50,581 nt of DNA. Origin: Vicinamibacteraceae bacterium (lineage in GTDB: Bacteria > Planctomycetota > Phycisphaerae > Phycisphaerales > UBA5793). Position 1 is the first letter of the stretch. Every line of letters starts with the position of its first letter. Under the pieces are notes generated by a model. That model had not been told where the DNA came from and searched no databases. It saw only the letters and a list, made by a program, of their open reading frames with translations. The stretch is taken from positions 1-50,581 of the forward strand of contig WYBR01000113.1 in the NCBI GenBank assembly GCA_011525805.1. The letters run 5' to 3'. A program made the position numbers and the translations under genes. Positions 14,526 through 24,985 of this stretch are shown one piece after another.

Positions 14526-17297
14526 ATGTCGCAAGGACGCATGAATCAGGTTGTGGGCGCCGGACGCACGCTCGTGACGGCCGCCCTCGTCGCCGTCGTC
14601 GGAATCACGATGCCCACGGGCTGCTCGACGACGGACTCCGCCGCGCGCAAGCCGGCGATCAACGTGGGCACGGGCAGCAGCCGCGTGCAGGAGACGCGCA
14701 CCTACATCAGCAGCGCGTCGAAGCAGTACCAACTGCCCGACACCTACGTGAGCGAGGCGAAGGTCGGCATGGCGAACGTCGAGCGCACGCTCGCGGACGC
14801 CGAAGCCACGGCGGTGGCGCAGGAGGCGTCGCAGCGCGAGGGCACGGCCCGCCTTCAGGCGCGCAAGCAGGAAGCGGTGACGCGCGAGCAGATCGCGCTG
14901 GCCGAGGCCGACCGCCTCAAGCAGCAGTACGACGCCGAGCAGAACCGCATCTTCGCCGACATGGCTGCCCGGCAGCGCGAGATCGAGGCCGCCGCCGCCC
15001 GCGACGAGGCCCTCGTTCAGGCCCTGCTCAAGGAGCGCCAGACGATCCAGGAGGAACTCCTCTCCCGCGCCAACACCGAGTTCAGCGAGGCCAACGCCCG
15101 CATCGAGAAACTCCGCAATGTGCGCGAGACGACCAAGACCGAGTCCCTCGCCGCGATCGAAGACATGCGCGAGACCGCCAAGGCCACCCGCAGCCGCGCC
15201 GAGGCGACCGTCAACGCCATGCGCGTCGAGGCCAACGCCGTCTCCGACCAGACCAAGGCCCAGGCGGATGAACTGAAGATCCGCATCGAGACCGTCGTTC
15301 AGCAGTCCAACGCCGAGTCCAAGCGCCTCGCCGCCAAGTCCGCTTCGCTCCTTCAGGAAGCGACGGCCCAGTCCGCCGAACTCAACGCCCGCGCCGACGC
15401 GCTCACCGCGCAGGCCTCGCAGGAGGAGTACGACGTCAAGATCAAGGCCGCCGACTCGCTCTGGGCCCAGGCCCAGTTCAACCACGAGCGCGCCATCGTC
15501 CAGTCCCAGTCGGACTACGCCCGCGCCGAGGCGAAAATCGCCCGCTTGCGCGGCGACGCCGAGGTCATCTCCCAGCAGGGCGAGACCGACTTCAAGCACG
15601 GCATGGATGAACTCGAGTCGTGGACCAAGGACGCCCGCGCCGAGATCAACAAGATCCGCATCCAGGCGGACCGACACGAGTCCGTCGCACGCAGCCAGTT
15701 CGTCAAGGCCGAGGCCGAGGCCCGCGCCAATGCCCTCCGCGAGACCGCCGCGCACCAGCGCGAACTCGCCGAGGAAGAGATGAAGACGATCATCGCCGCG
15801 GCGAAGGAAGAGGCCGCACGCGTCCGCGCCATGATCATCGACGACCTCGCCAAGCAGCAGGCCAAGGGCAGCGTCGAGACGACCGGCAAGACTGATCCCG
15901 CCCAGCCGCTTCCCGAGAACCTCCACAACGTGCCGCCGGCCCCGGGCGTGACGCCTGTGACCCCGCGCGTCGAGCCCGAGCACATCGCCGCCTTCCGCAC
16001 CGCGCTCGCCGAGGTGATGAAGGACCGGGCGACGGCCGACGCCCACTCGCTGGCCCTCGAAGCGTCCTACGCCGAGACCAAGACGAACCTCGAGGCGGCC
16101 CGCAGCCAGCAACTCGCCGTCGCCGCCGAGCAGCAGGCCATCGCCTCGGCCCTCGAAACGCAGGCGCAGGCGAAACTGGCGGAAGTGACGGCGCTGGCGA
16201 CGGCGGAACTCGCCTTCGCCCAGAGCCGCCACCAGCGCGCCATCGTCGAAGCAGGCGCCTTCCGCAAGGAGGCCCTCGCCCAGGCGACCGACCTCCGTGC
16301 CCAGGCCAAGACGACCTACGACGTGGCCGTGGCCCAGTCAAACCAGTTGAAGGCCGAGTCGGAGATGACGGCTCGCAACGGCCAGACCGAGGCGACCGCC
16401 CTCCAGGCCCAACTCGACGCCATCAACCGCCGCGGCAACGCCGAGTACAGCCGCCTCGTCGCCGAGGCCGACAGCGTGCACCAGAGCCAGACCGCCCTGG
16501 CCACCCAGTTCGACGCCCAGATCGACGCCGCCCAGCGCACCTTGACGGCCGAACTCGCCAAACTCGATCGCTCGATCGAGTCGCAGACGATCGTCGCCCA
16601 GGCGAACTACGACGAATCCCTCGTCCGCGCCGAAGTCGTCGGCAAGCAGACCGAGGTCGAGATCGCCCGCATCCGCGCCCGCAACGCGCTCGACCAGTCG
16701 CTGGCCGAGGCGGAACTCGACCGCTCGCGCACGCTTGTCTACACGAACCGCGTGAAAGGCGAGGCGGATGTTGAGCGCCTCGTCGCCAACGCCCGGGCCG
16801 AGAGCGAGCAGGCCGAAGCCCTCACCGAGGCCGAGTTCGCCCACCTCCGCGCCGAGCGCGACATCGTGATGGCGCACGTCGAGGCGAACCGCAAGTCGGC
16901 CCTCGCGCAGGAAGAGGCCGTCCGCGCCCAGTTCGGCGCCCGCCTCGTGCAGGTGGATGCGGAGCGCGTGAAGAGCGCGGCGGATGAGTTCCGCACCGAG
17001 ACCTTCCGCCAGAAGAACCTCGAGACGACCATCGCCCAGGCCGAAGCGATGCGGGCCGAGACGCAGCAGCGCCTCGCCGCACTCCGGGCGCAGCAGCAGG
17101 AACTCCAACTGGCTGCGACGAAGAACTGGGATCAGCGCCTCGCGGAACTGCGCAAGTCGACGAGGACGTTCCAGACCGAGTTCCGCGTTCCGCTCCCCTC
17201 GGTGACGCCCCTCCAGGCGACGCGCGAGACCGTCAAGACCGGCGACAAGGAGCAGAACGTCGTCCAGATCGCCGATGTCCCGACGGACAAGGAGTGA
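14526..17297 (+). CDS. Large Ala/Glu-rich coiled-coil lipoprotein
   Basis: A 923-residue protein starting at 14526 after GGAGG (14516-14520). The N terminus (residues 1-33) is a signal peptide ending MPTGC-S, which suggests lipidation at the Cys near residue 33, though -3 is Pro rather than Leu. The rest is almost unbroken predicted coiled coil, dominated by Ala, Glu, Arg and Gln (KQEAVTREQIALAEADRL, NAESKRLAAKSASLLQEA). One proline-rich break lies near residues 455-480 (PENLHNVPPAPGVTPVTP), giving two long helical halves. There are no catalytic motifs. A structural, envelope-spanning or cell-shape role is conceivable but is only inferred. It is a stand-alone unit closed by a strong terminator at 17338. 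Confidence 0.85.
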   Translation: MSQGRMNQVVGAGRTLVTAALVAVVGITMPTGCSTTDSAARKPAINVGTGSSRVQETRTYISSASKQYQLPDTYVSEAKVGMANVERTLADAEATAVAQEASQREGTARLQARKQEAVTREQIALAEADRLKQQYDAEQNRIFADMAARQREIEAAAARDEALVQALLKERQTIQEELLSRANTEFSEANARIEKLRNVRETTKTESLAAIEDMRETAKATRSRAEATVNAMRVEANAVSDQTKAQADELKIRIETVVQQSNAESKRLAAKSASLLQEATAQSAELNARADALTAQASQEEYDVKIKAADSLWAQAQFNHERAIVQSQSDYARAEAKIARLRGDAEVISQQGETDFKHGMDELESWTKDARAEINKIRIQADRHESVARSQFVKAEAEARANALRETAAHQRELAEEEMKTIIAAAKEEAARVRAMIIDDLAKQQAKGSVETTGKTDPAQPLPENLHNVPPAPGVTPVTPRVEPEHIAAFRTALAEVMKDRATADAHSLALEASYAETKTNLEAARSQQLAVAAEQQAIASALETQAQAKLAEVTALATAELAFAQSRHQRAIVEAGAFRKEALAQATDLRAQAKTTYDVAVAQSNQLKAESEMTARNGQTEATALQAQLDAINRRGNAEYSRLVAEADSVHQSQTALATQFDAQIDAAQRTLTAELAKLDRSIESQTIVAQANYDESLVRAEVVGKQTEVEIARIRARNALDQSLAEAELDRSRTLVYTNRVKGEADVERLVANARAESEQAEALTEAEFAHLRAERDIVMAHVEANRKSALAQEEAVRAQFGARLVQVDAERVKSAADEFRTETFRQKNLETTIAQAEAMRAETQQRLAALRAQQQELQLAATKNWDQRLAELRKSTRTFQTEFRVPLPSVTPLQATRETVKTGDKEQNVVQIADVPTDKE

Positions 17298-17337: not shown

Positions 17338-17369
17338 GCCGGCCGGGAGCCTCCTCCCGGCCGGCTTTT
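17338..17369 (+). terminator. Rho-independent terminator after the coiled-coil lipoprotein
   Basis: A perfect 12-bp stem (17338-17349 with 17354-17365), 4-base loop and TTTT, 40 bases past the stop codon. Confidence 0.9.
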
Positions 17370-17433: not shown

Positions 17434-17745
17434 CTATTCGTGGTCTCGCCACCACTCGCTCTCAGGTGGTGTCGCGATCTCGGGCGAAGCGGGAACATGC
17501 TTTGATTCGGAACGCGATCGCGCATCGACCCTCGTTGTGCCCGGTGGGCGACGTGTGACGGACCTCCGGAGGTACTTGATACAATATAATCCTGTTCCGG
17601 GGATTCCGATGGAGATGTACGGCTGCCCATTGGGAGATCGGCCGTACCGCAGTCCCGGCACTCCAACGCTCCAACCGACGCCACCCTTGGAGAGTGTGAC
17701 CCTGAACGGGCCTCGACCGAAGACTCTTCGCCAACGCCAACCCAT
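17434..17745 (-). CDS. DUF4236-domain protein, last gene of the vWA/PP2C/kinase operon
   Basis: A 103-residue protein. Residues 1-60 match the DUF4236 pattern: an N-terminal MGWRWRRVFGRGPFRVTLSK, then a Gly/Ser-rich strand GVGWSVGVPG, and the closing SIGIPGTGL before a tyrosine. DUF4236 is a small domain of unknown function found at the start of diverse bacterial proteins. The ATG at 17745 lies 11 bases after the stop of the kinase gene and has AGAGG upstream, so it is probably co-transcribed. The C-terminal 40 residues are Arg/Ser/Pro-rich and look unstructured. Its composition matches the lower-GC operon. Assignment rests on the N-terminal motif only. Confidence 0.7.
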   Translation of the reverse strand: MGWRWRRVFGRGPFRVTLSKGGVGWSVGVPGLRYGRSPNGQPYISIGIPGTGLYCIKYLRRSVTRRPPGTTRVDARSRSESKHVPASPEIATPPESEWWRDHE

Positions 17746-17756
17746 GAACGGCCTCT

Positions 17757-19985
17757 CTACGGCTTGCCGGCGTACTGATTCTCCCAGAGCGCGACCGAGT
17801 TGCCGCCGCAGGTCGCCATGCGCCGGCCCTTCTGATCGAGCGCCATTGACGTGAGCCCTCGCTGCTGAGCATTGTGTTCGCTAATGACCTTGCCAGAACG
17901 CGCATCCCAGCACCGCACGCGACCATCGCTCCCTGCTGTGATGACCGCGCGGGAGTCAGGTGAAAAGGCGACGCCCGTCACTGACTCCGATTTTGCGGCA
18001 ATACGCATTGCCTGCGACCCGGTCGCAAGATCCCACAGGAACAAGTACCCGTCCATGCCACCCGAAGCGGCCAGCCTGTCGTTCGGAGCGACCGCGACAC
18101 ACTTCACCGGTGCAGTGTGCCCGTAGAGCGTGTGGCGGCAACGCTCGTTTCTCACGTCCCAGACCTTCACACTCATGTCCTCTGAACCCGAGACGAGCAG
18201 CGCATGCGTTGAGCCGAATGCGGCGCAGAGGACTTTCCGCTTGTGTGCCTTCAGTCGTGCGACCTGCCGCTTCGCAGCCACGTCCCAGACATAGAGCTCC
18301 AGCACGCCCAGAGCGCCTGCGATGAATCGGCCATCGGGGCTCGCGGCAACTCCGTTGACGTTGCTGTTCCGGCGATTGGTGAATGTGTGAACATCAAGGC
18401 CAGCAACGCTCCACAGCCGCACGGACTTCCCGCCAGACGCGGCAACCTGACCTGCACCCACTCCAGTGACGCCGGTGACCGGCCCCCGAAACGCCTGCAG
18501 GGTCTTGACGCGAGAGCCGTCTTTGGCCCTCCACAGGATGACGAGCCCGAGATCGTCACCGGAGGCGATGTACTCGGCATCACGCGTCATGCCGACAGCA
18601 CGCACCGTCGTGTTGTGCCCCTGCTGAGGCTCATTCACGGTTTCAATGACATCCCGAAAGCCAGTCTGTTCCTTGTAGGTTCCGTCTGGCACGTCCCGCG
18701 TGCCAGTTTGCTCTTGGTACTGCTCGGCAACTTGACGCGTCCCCACTTGCACCTGGTACTGCTCCTGACGTTGCACCTCCACCGTCTGCGACAAACCGAA
18801 GAGAGATCGCAGCGCCCTTCCCACGGCCCCCTTCGCCGCAGGCACAGTCTGCGTGATGGTGCGCGTCCGCTGCTCAAAGACCGGCTCCGTCTTGTAGCGC
18901 GTTCTCACCTCGTACACCGGCTCGGTGCGATAGCGGGTTCGTGTGACGAATACTGGGTCCTTCCTCACGCGCTGGAGTTGTGAATGGCCGGGGCGCTGCC
19001 ACACCGGCGCAAAGCTAAACACGAACGTGACGATAGCGGGGTTTCTCCCTGGCGTCATGCCACGGACATGATCAAACAGCCACGAGTCTCCGCCGATGGG
19101 CGTCGGCGACGGCCCTGTGACGATCTGAATCCTGTCTGGATCGCATCCGCACACGCGGATGAGTCCGCGCACTCGCGACGTTATGTCGTTGTCGGAAAGC
19201 GACAGCAGCGAGCCGAAAACTCGGGAGGACCTGGGATCGAGGTAGTCGTCCTTGCGGAACAGCAGGTTGTCGCCGTTGTTGAACTCATCCCACAGTTCGG
19301 GTCGTTTTGATGTGGCGAGGATCGCCACGAGGATTACCTGGCCAGCAAACTCGTCCACGTCGCGGTGGAAGTCTCGCTCAGTGCGCTTGGGGTCCTGATA
19401 CGCAGGATGCCCCGTCTCATGGCTACCGCGGCCGGCAAGCGCTGGCACCCACATTCCGTCATAGTCGATCAACTTTAGGGAACCGTCTGGAGCCACCAGT
19501 ACGTTTCCATGCTGCAGGTCGCCGTGCGCGACTTCCTTCGCCTTGAGGTCCACGAGCATTCGCTGCCAGCGCTGAGCAAGGGATCCAAGCACTCCAGGTG
19601 AATAACGAGACCTTTCAATAAAGTCGTTTAGGGGTGTGCCCTCGACCCAGCCCATCTTCAGTATCGGAAACCTCTGTCCCTTAACAAGAATGCCCTGGGG
19701 TTGGAAGTCAAAGTGAATCGTATACGGCAGAGCGACCGCTCCGAGGTGTCCACCGATCCTCTGGTATCGCTCAGCCTGATCCTTGAAGTCTCTGAGGAAG
19801 CAACGGACAGCCCAGCGACGACCGCCGCTCGTGATTTCGTAAACACTCGCGAACCCGCCCGTAATTGGCCGCGGCAATCCAAGCCGATTGAGCGATGGAC
19901 TACCACGGCGCAAATCGGCGTCGGTGAAGCACAGGTGCGGCGCCTGAATCGCCTCCTGGTAATCTGACATCGTCGGCCAGAACAT
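17757..19985 (-). CDS. Protein kinase fused to a C-terminal WD40 propeller (TerY-P-type kinase)
   Basis: About 742 residues. Residues about 35-270 are a Ser/Thr-kinase-like domain: glycine loop GGFASVYEI, catalytic loop HGDLQHGN (His154 on) and metal-binding DYDG (Asp174 on), where canonical kinases have HRD and DFG. The usual VAIK lysine position reads AVR. These HGDLxxGN and DYDGM forms are the ones I associate with kinases of vWA/PP2C/kinase triads. A linker (about 345-450) has repeated Tyr/Thr/Glu/Arg motifs. Residues about 456-740 hold some seven WD40 repeats (SEDMSVKVWD, GMDGYLFLWD, GSDGRVRCWD). The ATG at 19985 fits the upstream GGAGG better than the GTG at 19994. It sits 16 bases after the PP2C gene. 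The likely role is phosphorylation signalling opposed by that phosphatase. Confidence 0.85.
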   Translation of the reverse strand: MFWPTMSDYQEAIQAPHLCFTDADLRRGSPSLNRLGLPRPITGGFASVYEITSGGRRWAVRCFLRDFKDQAERYQRIGGHLGAVALPYTIHFDFQPQGILVKGQRFPILKMGWVEGTPLNDFIERSRYSPGVLGSLAQRWQRMLVDLKAKEVAHGDLQHGNVLVAPDGSLKLIDYDGMWVPALAGRGSHETGHPAYQDPKRTERDFHRDVDEFAGQVILVAILATSKRPELWDEFNNGDNLLFRKDDYLDPRSSRVFGSLLSLSDNDITSRVRGLIRVCGCDPDRIQIVTGPSPTPIGGDSWLFDHVRGMTPGRNPAIVTFVFSFAPVWQRPGHSQLQRVRKDPVFVTRTRYRTEPVYEVRTRYKTEPVFEQRTRTITQTVPAAKGAVGRALRSLFGLSQTVEVQRQEQYQVQVGTRQVAEQYQEQTGTRDVPDGTYKEQTGFRDVIETVNEPQQGHNTTVRAVGMTRDAEYIASGDDLGLVILWRAKDGSRVKTLQAFRGPVTGVTGVGAGQVAASGGKSVRLWSVAGLDVHTFTNRRNSNVNGVAASPDGRFIAGALGVLELYVWDVAAKRQVARLKAHKRKVLCAAFGSTHALLVSGSEDMSVKVWDVRNERCRHTLYGHTAPVKCVAVAPNDRLAASGGMDGYLFLWDLATGSQAMRIAAKSESVTGVAFSPDSRAVITAGSDGRVRCWDARSGKVISEHNAQQRGLTSMALDQKGRRMATCGGNSVALWENQYAGKP

Positions 19986-20001
19986 TGCCCCCACACCTCC
20001 A

Positions 20002-20763
20002 TCATCCGATCACGTTCACCCGAACAAGAGTGGTGTCATCATTGCGGATCTTCTTCTCCAGCCGCAGTGAATCGATGATCTCGCGGAATGACCGCGGTTC
20101 CCCATCCGTATCTAGGTCGCGCAGCACACTCCAAGGTTTACGACCGGCCTCGTATTCTGTGAGGAACCACTGCGCCAGCGCGTCTGTGGTGAGGTAGAAA
20201 TCATCATCGAGATGCCAGGTGCCGCGCGCCTTGCGCATGGCCGCATACTCGCTCGGCCACCTGTTGCGCTGCGTGGACAGGAGATATGGACGACTGTTGA
20301 AAGCTCCAGAGGAGTCGAGGGGGAACGCCTTGTGCAGGCGGTCCTCTCTGACGAGGAAGAGGCATGCGTCACCCAGTGCGATCGCGCACCACTCCATCGG
20401 GTTATTCTCATTGCAGGTGCGGCGCATCGACATGCCCAGGAATGCGGCGAAAGCCCCGCGGGACGCCGCCTCCTCGGCAAACCACGGCAGCGGCCGACGA
20501 GCGACCTGGCGTTGCCACCGCTCCTGGAGTTTCGGAATCACTTCATGGAACGTCGGGAAAGTCAGCGTTCCCACGCCGAAGTGTCGGACAAGCCGCCTCG
20601 CCCACTCCCGTGCGAACGAGGACTCGGTGGCACCATCTGCAATGGCGCATCGGAACTTTCCATTGCGTGAGTCATGAGGCCATGCCGGATACGCTGCATC
20701 CTCGTAGTCGCGTTCACTCGTACCCGCTTTGGGCACGTGGTATGTGCGAGAAATGACGTGCAT
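20002..20763 (-). CDS. PP2C-family protein phosphatase of the triad
   Basis: A 253-residue protein of the PPM/PP2C metal-dependent Ser/Thr phosphatase superfamily. Metal-binding and core motifs are visible in order: an N-terminal ERDYEDAA (acidic residue pair), CAIADGATESSFA (motif DG-x-x-x), ALGDACLFLV, TTDALAQWF (the TDG position carries TDA), and the final NDDTTLVRV. The short length and the ADGATE version of the DGxxG motif resemble phosphatases of TerY-P triads. It starts 14 bases after the vWA stop and ends 16 bases before the kinase ATG, so it is in the same transcript. It probably reverses phosphorylation by the adjacent kinase; the natural substrate is unknown and could be the vWA protein or DUF4236 protein. 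Confidence 0.85.
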   Translation of the reverse strand: MHVISRTYHVPKAGTSERDYEDAAYPAWPHDSRNGKFRCAIADGATESSFAREWARRLVRHFGVGTLTFPTFHEVIPKLQERWQRQVARRPLPWFAEEAASRGAFAAFLGMSMRRTCNENNPMEWCAIALGDACLFLVREDRLHKAFPLDSSGAFNSRPYLLSTQRNRWPSEYAAMRKARGTWHLDDDFYLTTDALAQWFLTEYEAGRKPWSVLRDLDTDGEPRSFREIIDSLRLEKKIRNDDTTLVRVNVIG

Positions 20764-20777
20764 GGGGGGACACAGAG

Positions 20778-21617
20778 CTAGCGGAGGTTGCTGGGTCGTG
20801 TCCCGATGTCGAGAGCTTCGATCAGCGTCACGAGGTCAGCATTCAGTACGAATCCACGGGACTCTTCGCCCACGTTAAACCCACGCTCCTGTGCCACTTT
20901 CTGCATGAAGGGAGTCAGTTGAGATGCGGTGTCGAACAGCATCAAGGAATAGGAGTCCTTCAGGCTGGCCGACGAGGCGGGAAAGGAGACCGTCGCAGAG
21001 TCTTTGCTGGAAAGGTGGATATTGAAAAGGAGTGCGTTGCCGTCGGTCGACGCCAGGTTGCGGAGTTTCTGCATGGCGCCGGTAGGATCGCCATCCGTCG
21101 ACTCGCCGTCCGTGATGTGAACGATCACAGGGGGGAAGCAGTTCGGGTGCGATTGAAGCCATCCTGACATCACTCGCTCCGCCTCGCTCATGGCCTGGCA
21201 CATCGGCGTCCCGCCATTTGAATGCGGTTCAAACCACACGGGAAACCGAACCGGCTGGTCCACGAGTCCGCCAGCCCCGTCATCCACCTTCTTCATCCGC
21301 TGTTCAACCCGCGCGGGGTTGTTCGCCAGTTCAGAAATGGGGACGAGCTCGCGACCGGAAAGGGGTCCAGTGAACGCGGGACCAACCGATGCGCCGTATC
21401 CGATGACTCCAACGTGGTAGTAGTCTCGCACCCCCTCCGACTTGGCGCACTTGATGACCAGGTTCGACAGAAGTTTGTTCAGTGCGTCAGCGACGCCCTG
21501 TGCCTTCGGCTTGGATGACTCTCCGGTGCCGAAGGCGTCCGTCATCGAGCCTGACTGATCGACGACGAACAGAAAACACGAGGGGTTGACGCGGCTGATC
21601 TCGGCGGTGTAGGTCAT
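20778..21617 (-). CDS. TerY-like von Willebrand A domain protein
   Basis: A 279-residue cytosolic vWA protein, first gene of the operon. The metal-ion-dependent adhesion site is complete: DQSGS (Asp20, Ser22, Ser24), the Thr in NGGTPMCQ, and the Asp in HITDGES. TerY-type features include LNKLLSNL and DYYHVGVIGYG following the first helix. The ATG at 21617 is chosen because the vWA fold begins at once (ISRVNPSCFLFVVD) and GGAG precedes it; upstream in-frame sequence is not convincing. In triads of this type the vWA protein is thought to assemble or be regulated by kinase and phosphatase. No tellurite-resistance terC/terD gene is in the window, so a canonical Ter cluster is not shown. Confidence 0.85.
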   Translation of the reverse strand: MTYTAEISRVNPSCFLFVVDQSGSMTDAFGTGESSKPKAQGVADALNKLLSNLVIKCAKSEGVRDYYHVGVIGYGASVGPAFTGPLSGRELVPISELANNPARVEQRMKKVDDGAGGLVDQPVRFPVWFEPHSNGGTPMCQAMSEAERVMSGWLQSHPNCFPPVIVHITDGESTDGDPTGAMQKLRNLASTDGNALLFNIHLSSKDSATVSFPASSASLKDSYSLMLFDTASQLTPFMQKVAQERGFNVGEESRGFVLNADLVTLIEALDIGTRPSNLR

Positions 21618-21884
21618 GAATCTGCTCCATCCTCGATGGCATATGCGAAGGCGCGCCAACCGACAACCGGCATCTGATCGGCGGATGCTGCCCATGCGGA
21701 CCCGAACTGGCCCAAGTCTATGCTCGTTACCCTACTGGGGGGGGAGTGCGTGTTCAGTCAACTTGTGTCACCGTCTCAGGACTATCAATGGTTATAGGAC
21801 TTTAGACCAGCCGGCAGCGTATGCCGCTGCATCACGCGTGGCCCGTAGATGTCGCCGCCCTTTCGCCGATGACACTCTCGGCCC

Positions 21885-23114
21885 ATGAATCGCTATCCGC
21901 TGCAACCGAAGCCGCGGCGCTGGGAGGCGCGGCTGAGTCCGCTGGTCATCCGCCTCACGCGAGCGCTGCGCCGGCGGCGGGCGGCGACGCGCGAGCGGCT
22001 CATCGGCGTCGAGGTGTGCGGTGCGGAGATCGTCCGCGACGCGGTCAACGCCGGCCAAGGCGTGCTCATCACGCCCAACCATCCCGGCCACGCCGACGCC
22101 TACATCATGTTCGACGCCGCCGACGCCGCGGGGCTCCCCTTCTACTTCATGTCCGCCTGGCAGGTCTTCGCCTTGCAGGACCCGATCGGCCGATGGCTGC
22201 TCACGCGGCACGGCTGCTTCAGCGTCGATCGCGAAGGGGCCGACAAGGAGGCCTTCCGCACCGCCGTCGAGATTGTCCGCGACCAGCGTGAGCCGCTGGT
22301 CGTCTTCCCCGAGGGGGAGGTCTATCACCAGAACGACCGGGTGACGCCCTTTCGCGACGGGGCGGCGGCGATCGCCTTGTCGGCCGCGAAAAAGGCGCAG
22401 CGCGAGATCGTCGCCATCCCGTGCGCGATCCGCTATCGATATGCGGCGGACCCGATGCCGCAACTGCTCGACCTGATGTCGCGCCTTGAGGAGAAGGTGC
22501 TCTGGCGGCCGCGGCCGGACCTGCCGCTGCCCCAGCGCCTCTACCGATTCGCGGAGGCGCTGCTCGCGCTCAAGGAGATCGAGCACGTCGGTCAGACGCA
22601 GGAAGGCACGCTGCCGCTGCGGACCACAATGCTCGCGGACCACATCCTGCGCCGCATCGAGGGGCGCTACTCCTTGGCGTCGCCGTCGGGCGCGAGCGAC
22701 CTCGGCGCCACGATCCCGGTGCGCGTCAAGGAGGCGCGGGCGGCGGCGCTCAAGCGCTTTGCGGAACTCGATGGAGAAGGCGCTGAACCTCGCCAAGCCG
22801 CAAGCGGCTGGTCGCGCATCGAGATCGCCAACGATTTCGACGACCTCTTCCTCGTCCTCCAGGCCTTCAGTTACCCCGGCGACTACGTGGATGAGCGGCC
22901 GACGGTCGAGCGCCTTGCCGAGACGCTCGACAAGTTCGAGGAGGACGTGCTGGGGGCGGCGAGCGCGACCGTCCGCGCCGACCGCCGGGCGACCGTGACT
23001 TTCGGCAGGCCAATCGCCTGCGGGGGCGGCGGGGCCGAGGGCCGCCTGCGAGCCGCAGACCTGACGGCCGCCCTGGAGTCCGCGGTCCAGGCCTTGCTCG
23101 ACGGGCATGCGTGA
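21885..23114 (+). CDS. PlsC-like 1-acyl-glycerol-phosphate acyltransferase family protein
   Basis: A 409-residue acyltransferase of the PlsC superfamily. The catalytic block is [11 protein letters not shown] near residues 63-73, a form of the NHxxxxD motif. The substrate-binding block VVFPEGEVY lies near 140, and GAAAIAL fits the third block. The protein is longer than typical PlsC (about 240 residues); residues 250-409 are a helical extension of unknown role. It has no clear membrane segment beyond amphipathic stretches. It probably transfers acyl chains in phospholipid or related lipid synthesis at the inner face of the membrane; the acceptor is not known. It lies 270 bases from the divergent vWA operon and reads toward the pseudopilin genes. 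Confidence 0.8.
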
Positions 23115-23144
23115 AAAAACTCGACTTTTTGCCGCAAGCCGCCA

Positions 23145-23173
23145 TTGCGGAAGCGGACATTTTCCGGTATGCT
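23145..23173 (+). promoter_or_regulatory. Probable sigma-70-like promoter for the pseudopilin gene at 23300
   Basis: TTGCGG (23145-23150) and TATGCT (23168-23173) are 17 bases apart, in a patch richer in A+T than its surroundings (AAAAAAC and CTTTTT nearby). It would give a leader of about 120 bases before the pseudopilin ATG. Confidence 0.45.
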
Positions 23174-23299
23174 CATAGGGCTGATCCCCGAGACCGGGCG
23201 CGGATCCCGGCCGGAGTGAGCCGGCATCGCACATCGCGCAGCCGTGGCCGCCGCTTCGACGGCGAGATTCGGCGAAGGCAGAGAGAGGAACCGACGCTC

Positions 23300-24100
23300 A
23301 TGCACAAGACAAACCGCCGCGGCTTCACGCTCATCGAACTGCTGGTGGTGATTTCGATCATCTCGCTGCTCATCGCGCTGCTGATGCCGGCGCTCTCGTC
23401 GGCGCGGCACGCGGGGCGGAAGATCCAGTGCGGCTCGAACATGAAGCAGATCGCCGCGGCCCTTCAGACCTACGCCACGGAGAACAACAGTTACGTCCCG
23501 CGCGAAGGTGACCAGAGCATCGGCAATGACCCGCCCTTCAACGGGCCGCGATTCTCCAAGGCCAATTGGGCGCTGGTCTTCCGCCGCTACGTGGACTCGA
23601 AGTACCGCAACAACGGCTACAACCCGCCGCGCGAGTTGTGGGACGAGTTCAAGCCCGTGCTCGTCTACAAGTGCCCCTCCCATCCCAACAAGAAGCACCA
23701 GATTCAGTACGTGAACAACGGCCTGGACTTCGCCAGCCCCAGCCGCGTGCGCGAAGACCGTGACGGCCGCGTCGCCACGATGGTCGAGCACATCCGCAAC
23801 CCGTCGGGCATGGTCTACCTCTCCGACTTCACCGATGACGCGAACAACGCCTTTGCGAACATGCTCTACGGCGTGAACCAGAGCGACCGCTTCATCGCCT
23901 CGTGGTACGACGTCTGGCGGGCCGTGCACGTCACCGGCCAGGACGGCAACACCGGCGTCGGCCGGCGCGTCGATCGCCTCCGCCACCAGACGGGATCGAA
24001 CGTCATGTACGTGGACGGCCACGTCGAGTTCCGCCAGGACGAGTACATCTACGACGTCAAGAGTTGGGACGACGGCATCTACAACCTTCAGCGGAACTGA
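23300..24100 (+). CDS. Type II secretion/type IV pilin-like pseudopilin with H-X9-DG motif (1)
   Basis: A 266-residue protein. The N terminus [17 protein letters not shown] is a class III prepilin signal cut by a prepilin peptidase between Gly8 and Phe9; the membrane helix follows, with Glu at +5. The C terminus has [12 protein letters not shown], the H-X9-DG motif characteristic of a pseudopilin family expanded in planctomycetes. The ATG at 23300 follows GAGAGAGG; the longer open frame upstream is not pilin-like. Central sequence YKCPSHPN is shared with the next gene. Whether it builds a secretion pseudopilus or another fibre is not shown. It probably forms a small operon with the next gene. 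Confidence 0.9.
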
Positions 24101-24148
24101 CCGCGACCTCCCATCGCGGCTGATTCCGGCGTGAGAGGAGCAGTGGTG

Positions 24149-24985
24149 ATGAATCATCGGCACACTCGAGGCTTCACCCTGATCGAACTGCTCGTTGTGA
24201 TTTCGATCATTTCGCTGCTCATCGCCCTGCTCCTGCCGGGCCTGGCGTCGGCGCGGAACGCGGGTCGCCGCGCGCAGTGCATCTCCAACTTCCGCAACAT
24301 CGGCCAGGCGACACACATGTACGCCGGCGACTGGAAGGGCTTTGTGCCGCGCGAAGGCAATGAGAACTACCTTGAAGAGCGCGGCAACGGGGCCTACTGG
24401 ACGGTCTCCCACGTTCCCTGGGCCATGGCGTGCCGCAAGTACGTTGCCCCGCGGCCCGAATACCGGAACAACTATCACAATCCGCCTAGGGAGTACGGCG
24501 ACAAGTTCGTCAACGCGAAGATCTACAAGTGCCCCTCCCATCCCAATCCCGGGCACAATGTCTCCTACATCATCAACGGCCTGCGCTTCGATCGCGCCGG
24601 CATCGTCAACGAGGGCAACTTCCGACACGGCAGCGGACGCTACGCCCACCAGATCGAGCGCGTCGTCACCAGCAGCACGATGGTCTACATCACCGAGTTT
24701 GAGTCCGACCCCACCAACTACTTCGTCAACCAGATGTACAACACGTCGTGGAACGCCTACGGCGACCGCGGACCGGCGGGCTGGATGGACACATGGCGCG
24801 CCGTCCACGTCATCGGCCAGTACCAGGGCACCAGCGGACGCCGCACCGAGCACAAGCGCCACCAGACCGGCTCCAACGTCCTCTACCTCGACGGCCACGC
24901 CGAATACCGCACCGACGATTACATCCTCGACCTCAAGAACTGGGACGACAAACTCTACCACCTCCAGCGCGACACCGATCGCTGA
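24149..24985 (+). CDS. Pseudopilin with H-X9-DG motif (2)
   Basis: A 278-residue paralogue of the preceding gene, 48 bases downstream. The ATG at 24149 follows GAGAGGAG (24133-24140), so it is preferred to the in-frame GTG at 24131. The N terminus [17 protein letters not shown] has the prepilin peptidase cut between Gly8 and Phe9 and the Glu at +5. The C terminus again has [12 protein letters not shown] (H-X9-DG), and YKCPSHPN occurs in the middle. The two proteins share large segments, so they arose by tandem duplication. Cysteines in the middle may form a disulfide; this is only a guess. Confidence 0.9.

Follow-up and report, generated by a model that had tools for sequence, protein, structure and literature searches.

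A TerY-P-type triad with a WD40-tailed kinase and an adjoining DUF4236 gene on an acquired segment

Four open reading frames were located at 17434-21617 of contig WYBR01000113.1 of a Vicinamibacteraceae bacterium, within the window (the whole stretch analysed, 50,581 nucleotides). All of them were on the minus strand and were separated by gaps of 14, 16 and 11 bases (Table 1), as an earlier note on this DNA had described. For the kinase-WD40 gene an alternative start, GTG at 19994, is possible. VWA, WD40 and DUF4236 domains were matched in Pfam, and all three core proteins matched the PADLOC models of TerY-P, the kinase over its kinase half only. These matches agreed with the previous description of a TerY-P-like triad in which the kinase bears WD40 and a DUF4236 gene is appended. 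TerY-P was described through comparative genomics (PMC7699616, PMC11090510), and its kinase-OB version acts against T7-like phages according to Gao et al. 2020, as cited in PMC11090510 and PMC7699616. Since TerY-P already has PADLOC models and its OB-fold version is a demonstrated antiphage system, the locus is a variant of a known system, and the suggestion of the earlier note that it could be a module not yet described in this form was overstated.

Table 1. Features of the four-gene locus and of the segment that carries it (window positions)
Feature	Position	Strand	Details
TerY-type vWA protein	20778..21617	-	279 aa; MIDAS intact; PADLOC TerY 1.3e-110, model 1-277/277
PP2C-like phosphatase	20002..20763	-	253 aa; PADLOC PP2C 1.3e-31; metal-site acidic residues kept in 68 homologues
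Kinase (1-285), disordered repeat linker (290-454) and seven-bladed WD40 propeller (455-737)	17757..19985	-	742 aa; PADLOC STK_OB 5.9e-79; Pfam WD40 1.6e-42
DUF4236 protein	17434..17745	-	103 aa; six-strand domain joined by a disordered linker to a C-terminal WW tail (EWWRDHE); PF14020 1.2e-14
Acquired 4.5-kb segment	17365..21883	.	No homology in two genus-mates; lower GC and GC3
Intrinsic-terminator-like hairpin of upstream plus-strand gene	17338..17365	+	Left edge of segment; genus-mate homology ends there

The TerY-like vWA protein with an intact MIDAS was borne out by the full-length PADLOC match, and the MIDAS residues D20, S22, S24, T137 and D170 were invariant in 65 vWA sequences. For the compact PP2C protein, the acidic residues E21/D22, D43, D132, D194 and D242/D243 were 96-100% conserved in 68 PP2C sequences. 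A Pfam match was not obtained, and a search for a PDB structure by sequence profile was tried and gave none, so the phosphatase label is drawn from the PADLOC model together with the conserved acidic residues.

The STK_OB match of the kinase covered only positions 1-282 of the 562 in the model. The C-terminal OB fold of the Gao-type TerY-P is absent, and its place is taken by seven WD40 blades that follow a disordered linker. Compared with Pfam Pkinase, the kinase half scored 7.7e-6, which is below the Pfam cut-off, and a profile built from three kinases matched the structures of WNK3, PknA and StkP. The motifs HxDLQHGN and DYDG were nearly invariant in 89 kinase sequences, in line with the HGDL and DYDG motifs reported before. 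The VAIK lysine was replaced by Arg in 60 of the 89, the window kinase among them, and given this Arg the activity of the window kinase is not certain from its sequence. In E. coli, YegI is active without conserved motifs, according to the title of a cited paper. The repeat-rich linker (residues about 330-455) was predicted to be disordered, and its repeats were visible only in the protein, with no tandem repeats in the linker at the DNA level. The AlphaFold2 model contained a folded kinase domain, a disordered middle (290-454) and a propeller of 28 strands, so that the seven blades claimed previously were found in both sequence and model. In Foldseek, the propeller was matched best by the WD40 domain 5yzv of a Thermomonospora protein (TM 0.90), which we take to be the kinase PkwA.

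A profile search of genome contigs with an alignment of three kinases returned 78 loci from many phyla; as these were picked by likeness to three kinases of which two bear WD40, the WD40 frequencies among them are biased upwards. Complete triads numbered 64, including the window and two plasmid loci. In 57 of the 64 triads, from many phyla, the three genes followed one another as vWA>PP2C>kinase on the same strand, less than 400 bases apart; scattered genes had been named beforehand as a result that would speak against a module. The pairwise identity matrices of the vWA, PP2C and kinase proteins correlated with r of 0.82-0.89, values reached in 0 of 2000 permutations, and the three proteins co-evolve. 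Triads were carried by plasmids of Calothrix (L093:4872-8950) and Acaryochloris (L094:4754-9394). On a Planctomycetales contig (L057:170-16843), five TerY-P-type kinase paralogues with differing C-terminal tails, one of them WD40, stood in a row, and no vWA or PP2C was found within its 16.8 kb; duplicated kinases were also present in L053, L070, L080 and L087. At L018:7959-13419, genes for a coiled-coil protein and a ClpB-type AAA ATPase came after a triad whose kinase had a short tail.

The C-termini of the kinases differed between near relatives. Apparent transmembrane segments formed the tail in L015 and L016, the tails of L017 and L018 were very short, that of L022 consisted of a zinc ribbon and HhH (weak Pfam matches), and the L081 kinase was of the full OB type. 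WD40 tails were present in the window, in Planctomycetales L039 (on the same contig as L013), in Eisenbacteria L019, in Thiotrichaceae L036 and L044 (with PEGA), in Myxococcota L052, L056 and L078 and the related L079, and in the planctomycete paralogues L053, L057 and L083. Seven changes were needed to place the WD40 label on the kinase tree. The tree test rejected the hypothesis that all WD40 kinases go back to one origin (p-AU 5.4e-12) and was compatible with a clade of the window, L019 and L039 (p 0.18). WD40 tails arose several times, and the triad order is conserved while the kinase tail is freely swapped. Besides the kinases, a second protein with HEAT and WD40 repeats was encoded 3' of the PEGA-WD40 kinase (L036:3278-6394), a similar-looking gene lay downstream of the kinase in L044, and the genome of the window encoded a second, separate WD40 protein (G000:C20:29229-30851).

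Because planctomycetes are well known to have WD40-tailed kinases (PMC5587647, PMC11032199), the new point is limited to the use of WD40 tails in the TerY-P slot. In the literature searched, which left the original TerY-P papers outside, no mention of WD40 or DUF4236 together with TerY-P was found. WD40-kinase fusions are frequent in planctomycetes, and the tail could simply reflect how readily planctomycete kinases acquire such repeats, with no system-specific role. This explanation is improbable in our estimate, since WD40 triads also occurred in Thiotrichaceae, Myxococcota and Eisenbacteria, and the tail sits there where other triads have OB, zinc-ribbon or transmembrane tails, which suggests a shared functional slot.

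In 9 of the 64 triads the DUF4236 gene came immediately after the kinase gene, and four of the nine overlapped it; within about 1.0 Mb of loci and window sequence, none was found away from the kinase. The domain was present in only 6 of 149 genomes of the phylum. Seven triad-linked DUF4236 proteins (window, L022, L025, L065, L069, L081 and L089), from Planctomycetota, Myxococcota, Bacteroidota and Chlorobiota and one unassigned, had in common a C-terminal WW tail in which two Trp are invariant and which usually reads PWWxQKnL in the alignment of triad-linked proteins; the frame of the L025 copy was broken by a stop codon. Among the DUF4236 proteins examined that stand alone, from planctomycetes, Bacteroidota and viral contigs, none had the tail, and some ended in a hydrophobic segment; the two longer, triad-linked DUF4236 proteins of Paenibacillus (L064, L073) lacked it too. 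A larger DUF4236-WW family in Bacteroidota was sought among 395 genomes, and a full-length match was obtained only in the triad-linked case. The six-strand model gave no significant PDB match from which a function could be guessed by fold.

An operon of vWA, PP2C, kinase and DUF4236 was also found at L081, with its OB-type kinase, and at L065 and L089. The search of other genomes for the same four genes was thus answered in part: triad with DUF4236 and triad with WD40 recurred separately, but among the loci found, the window was the only one in which triad, WD40 kinase and DUF4236 stood together. That DUF4236 is a passenger gene outside the system seems quite unlikely. Its occurrence in a minority of triads, the existence of stand-alone DUF4236 genes and its absence from the nearest kinase relatives (L015-L018) would fit a passenger, whereas the invariable position directly downstream of the kinase and the WW tail unseen in stand-alone forms argue against it. 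DUF4236 recurs beside TerY-P in distant phyla, and it is a candidate that merits testing as a part of the system.

By blastn against two genus-mates, homology stopped at 17364 and resumed at 21884, at the start of an acyltransferase gene. The GC of the segment between was about 0.60 against 0.68, and its GC3 was 0.71 against about 0.87. In the genus-mates the two flanking genes were on different contigs, so that a simple empty site was not seen and the difference coincides with a rearrangement. The kinase family was found in 3 of 392 genomes of the phylum (about 1%) and in 2 of 397 of the class. The lower GC, the absence from two genus-mates and the occurrence in about 1% of the phylum indicated a segment like a horizontally acquired, lineage-specific cassette. 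Carriage by phages or viruses was considered, and viral contigs and phage records gave no match to the kinase; two cyanobacterial plasmids carried a triad. The earlier note had proposed to look for a defence island, and in the window genes that were scanned no defence gene other than the cassette turned up. In the same window, 14526-17297 encoded a 923-aa Ala/Glu-rich coiled-coil-like protein without Pfam match, 79% identical in the two genus-mates, and 23111-24985 contained two adjoining, apparently duplicated genes with type IV pilin-like N-termini.

Compared with the Gao-type antiphage TerY-P (TerY, PP2C, STK_OB), the window encodes the same three families, with full-length matches for TerY and PP2C and a match for the kinase half. 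Differently, the Gao-type kinase has an OB fold, and the window has a linker and a WD40 propeller plus the DUF4236 gene. CoCoNuT systems carry TerY-P with a kinase-zinc-ribbon version (PMC11090510). The triad of vWA, PP2C and kinase is common to the window and to type II and III-A CoCoNuTs (PMC11090510), in which a zinc ribbon forms the C-terminus of the kinase and McrBC-type and HEPN genes are associated with it. The window triad stands alone. Its kinase has no zinc ribbon, and a scan of its neighbours for genes such as CnuB, CnuC, CnuH and CnuE gave no defence or helicase genes. The Ter stress-response system has TerD and TerC neighbours, and the window triad has neither nearby. TerD was absent from the whole genome and the one TerC was on another contig; the statement that terC and terD are not nearby was correct, but their absence is not distinctive. 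PkwA and planctomycete Ser/Thr kinases likewise join a kinase to a C-terminal WD40 propeller, the top Foldseek match included, but by family the window kinase is a TerY-P kinase. To our knowledge, no WD40-tailed bacterial Ser/Thr kinase has been described in a vWA-PP2C triad.

E. coli YegL-PphC-YegI also encodes vWA, PP2C and kinase together on one strand, and PphC dephosphorylates the autokinase YegI (PMC13232886). It differs from the window in having neither WD40 nor a PADLOC match. Such a system bears on the main rival explanation, that the locus is a TerY-P-like stress- or metal-response module and not immune, with the WD40 kinase monitoring internal state as YegI-PphC-YegL and the Ter systems may do. 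Stress signalling is the main rival because the window lacks a defence island; the flanks are genes common to the genus-mates, E. coli K-12 has a triad of the same layout, and WD40 tails are common on planctomycete kinases generally. The comparison of the window proteins with YegI, PphC and YegL by BLAST and profiles gave only weak, non-significant matches, and a mobile accessory cassette accounts for the patchy distribution and the foreign composition better than a housekeeping pathway does. A stress role is a possible but less favoured explanation.

We consider it somewhat probable (about 0.55) that the locus is a TerY-P phosphorylation switch on an acquired four-gene cassette, in which a cue sensed by the tail, likely from phage, leads to an antiphage output and DUF4236 is docked to the system. 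By analogy with YegI-PphC and OB-type TerY-P, the most likely mechanism would be as follows. The kinase and PP2C may act on a common set of phosphoproteins, probably including the kinase itself, with PP2C holding the switch off. The vWA protein would bind a protein ligand through its metal site and serve as a scaffold or a substrate. The kinase C-terminus could be an exchangeable sensing or docking part, and as a WD40 propeller stands where the known versions have an OB fold or a zinc ribbon, the cue is likely to be protein and not nucleic acid. Binding of the cue, for which a phage protein or damage induced by phage is the most likely candidate, would let kinase activity exceed that of the phosphatase, and the resulting phosphorylation would stop phage growth or the cell. 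DUF4236 may be a fourth component whose WW tail docks to one of the three triad proteins. As roles for the vWA protein and DUF4236, scaffold, substrate or effector may be considered. The antiphage output is suggested by the activity of the OB-type relatives and the cassette-like distribution. Against the switch model count the failure to find another defence gene among the scanned window genes or a kinase homologue in the viral and phage sequences, the single occurrence of the WD40 and DUF4236 combination, and the Arg in place of the VAIK lysine.

More tentatively, TerY-P might be a plug-in immune platform, in which a constant core is combined with swapped sensor tails (OB, zinc ribbon, transmembrane, WD40) and DUF4236-WW serves as a phospho-controlled effector or adaptor in several phyla. 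That WD40 propellers have taken the place of the kinase tail several times points to the tail as the part that determines the sensed cue, and DUF4236-WW, which recurs beside the triad, is a first candidate for a missing fourth TerY-P component. Both the swappable tail and the DUF4236-WW partner are open to direct testing with small constructs, and DUF4236, a domain with almost no literature, gains a concrete context.
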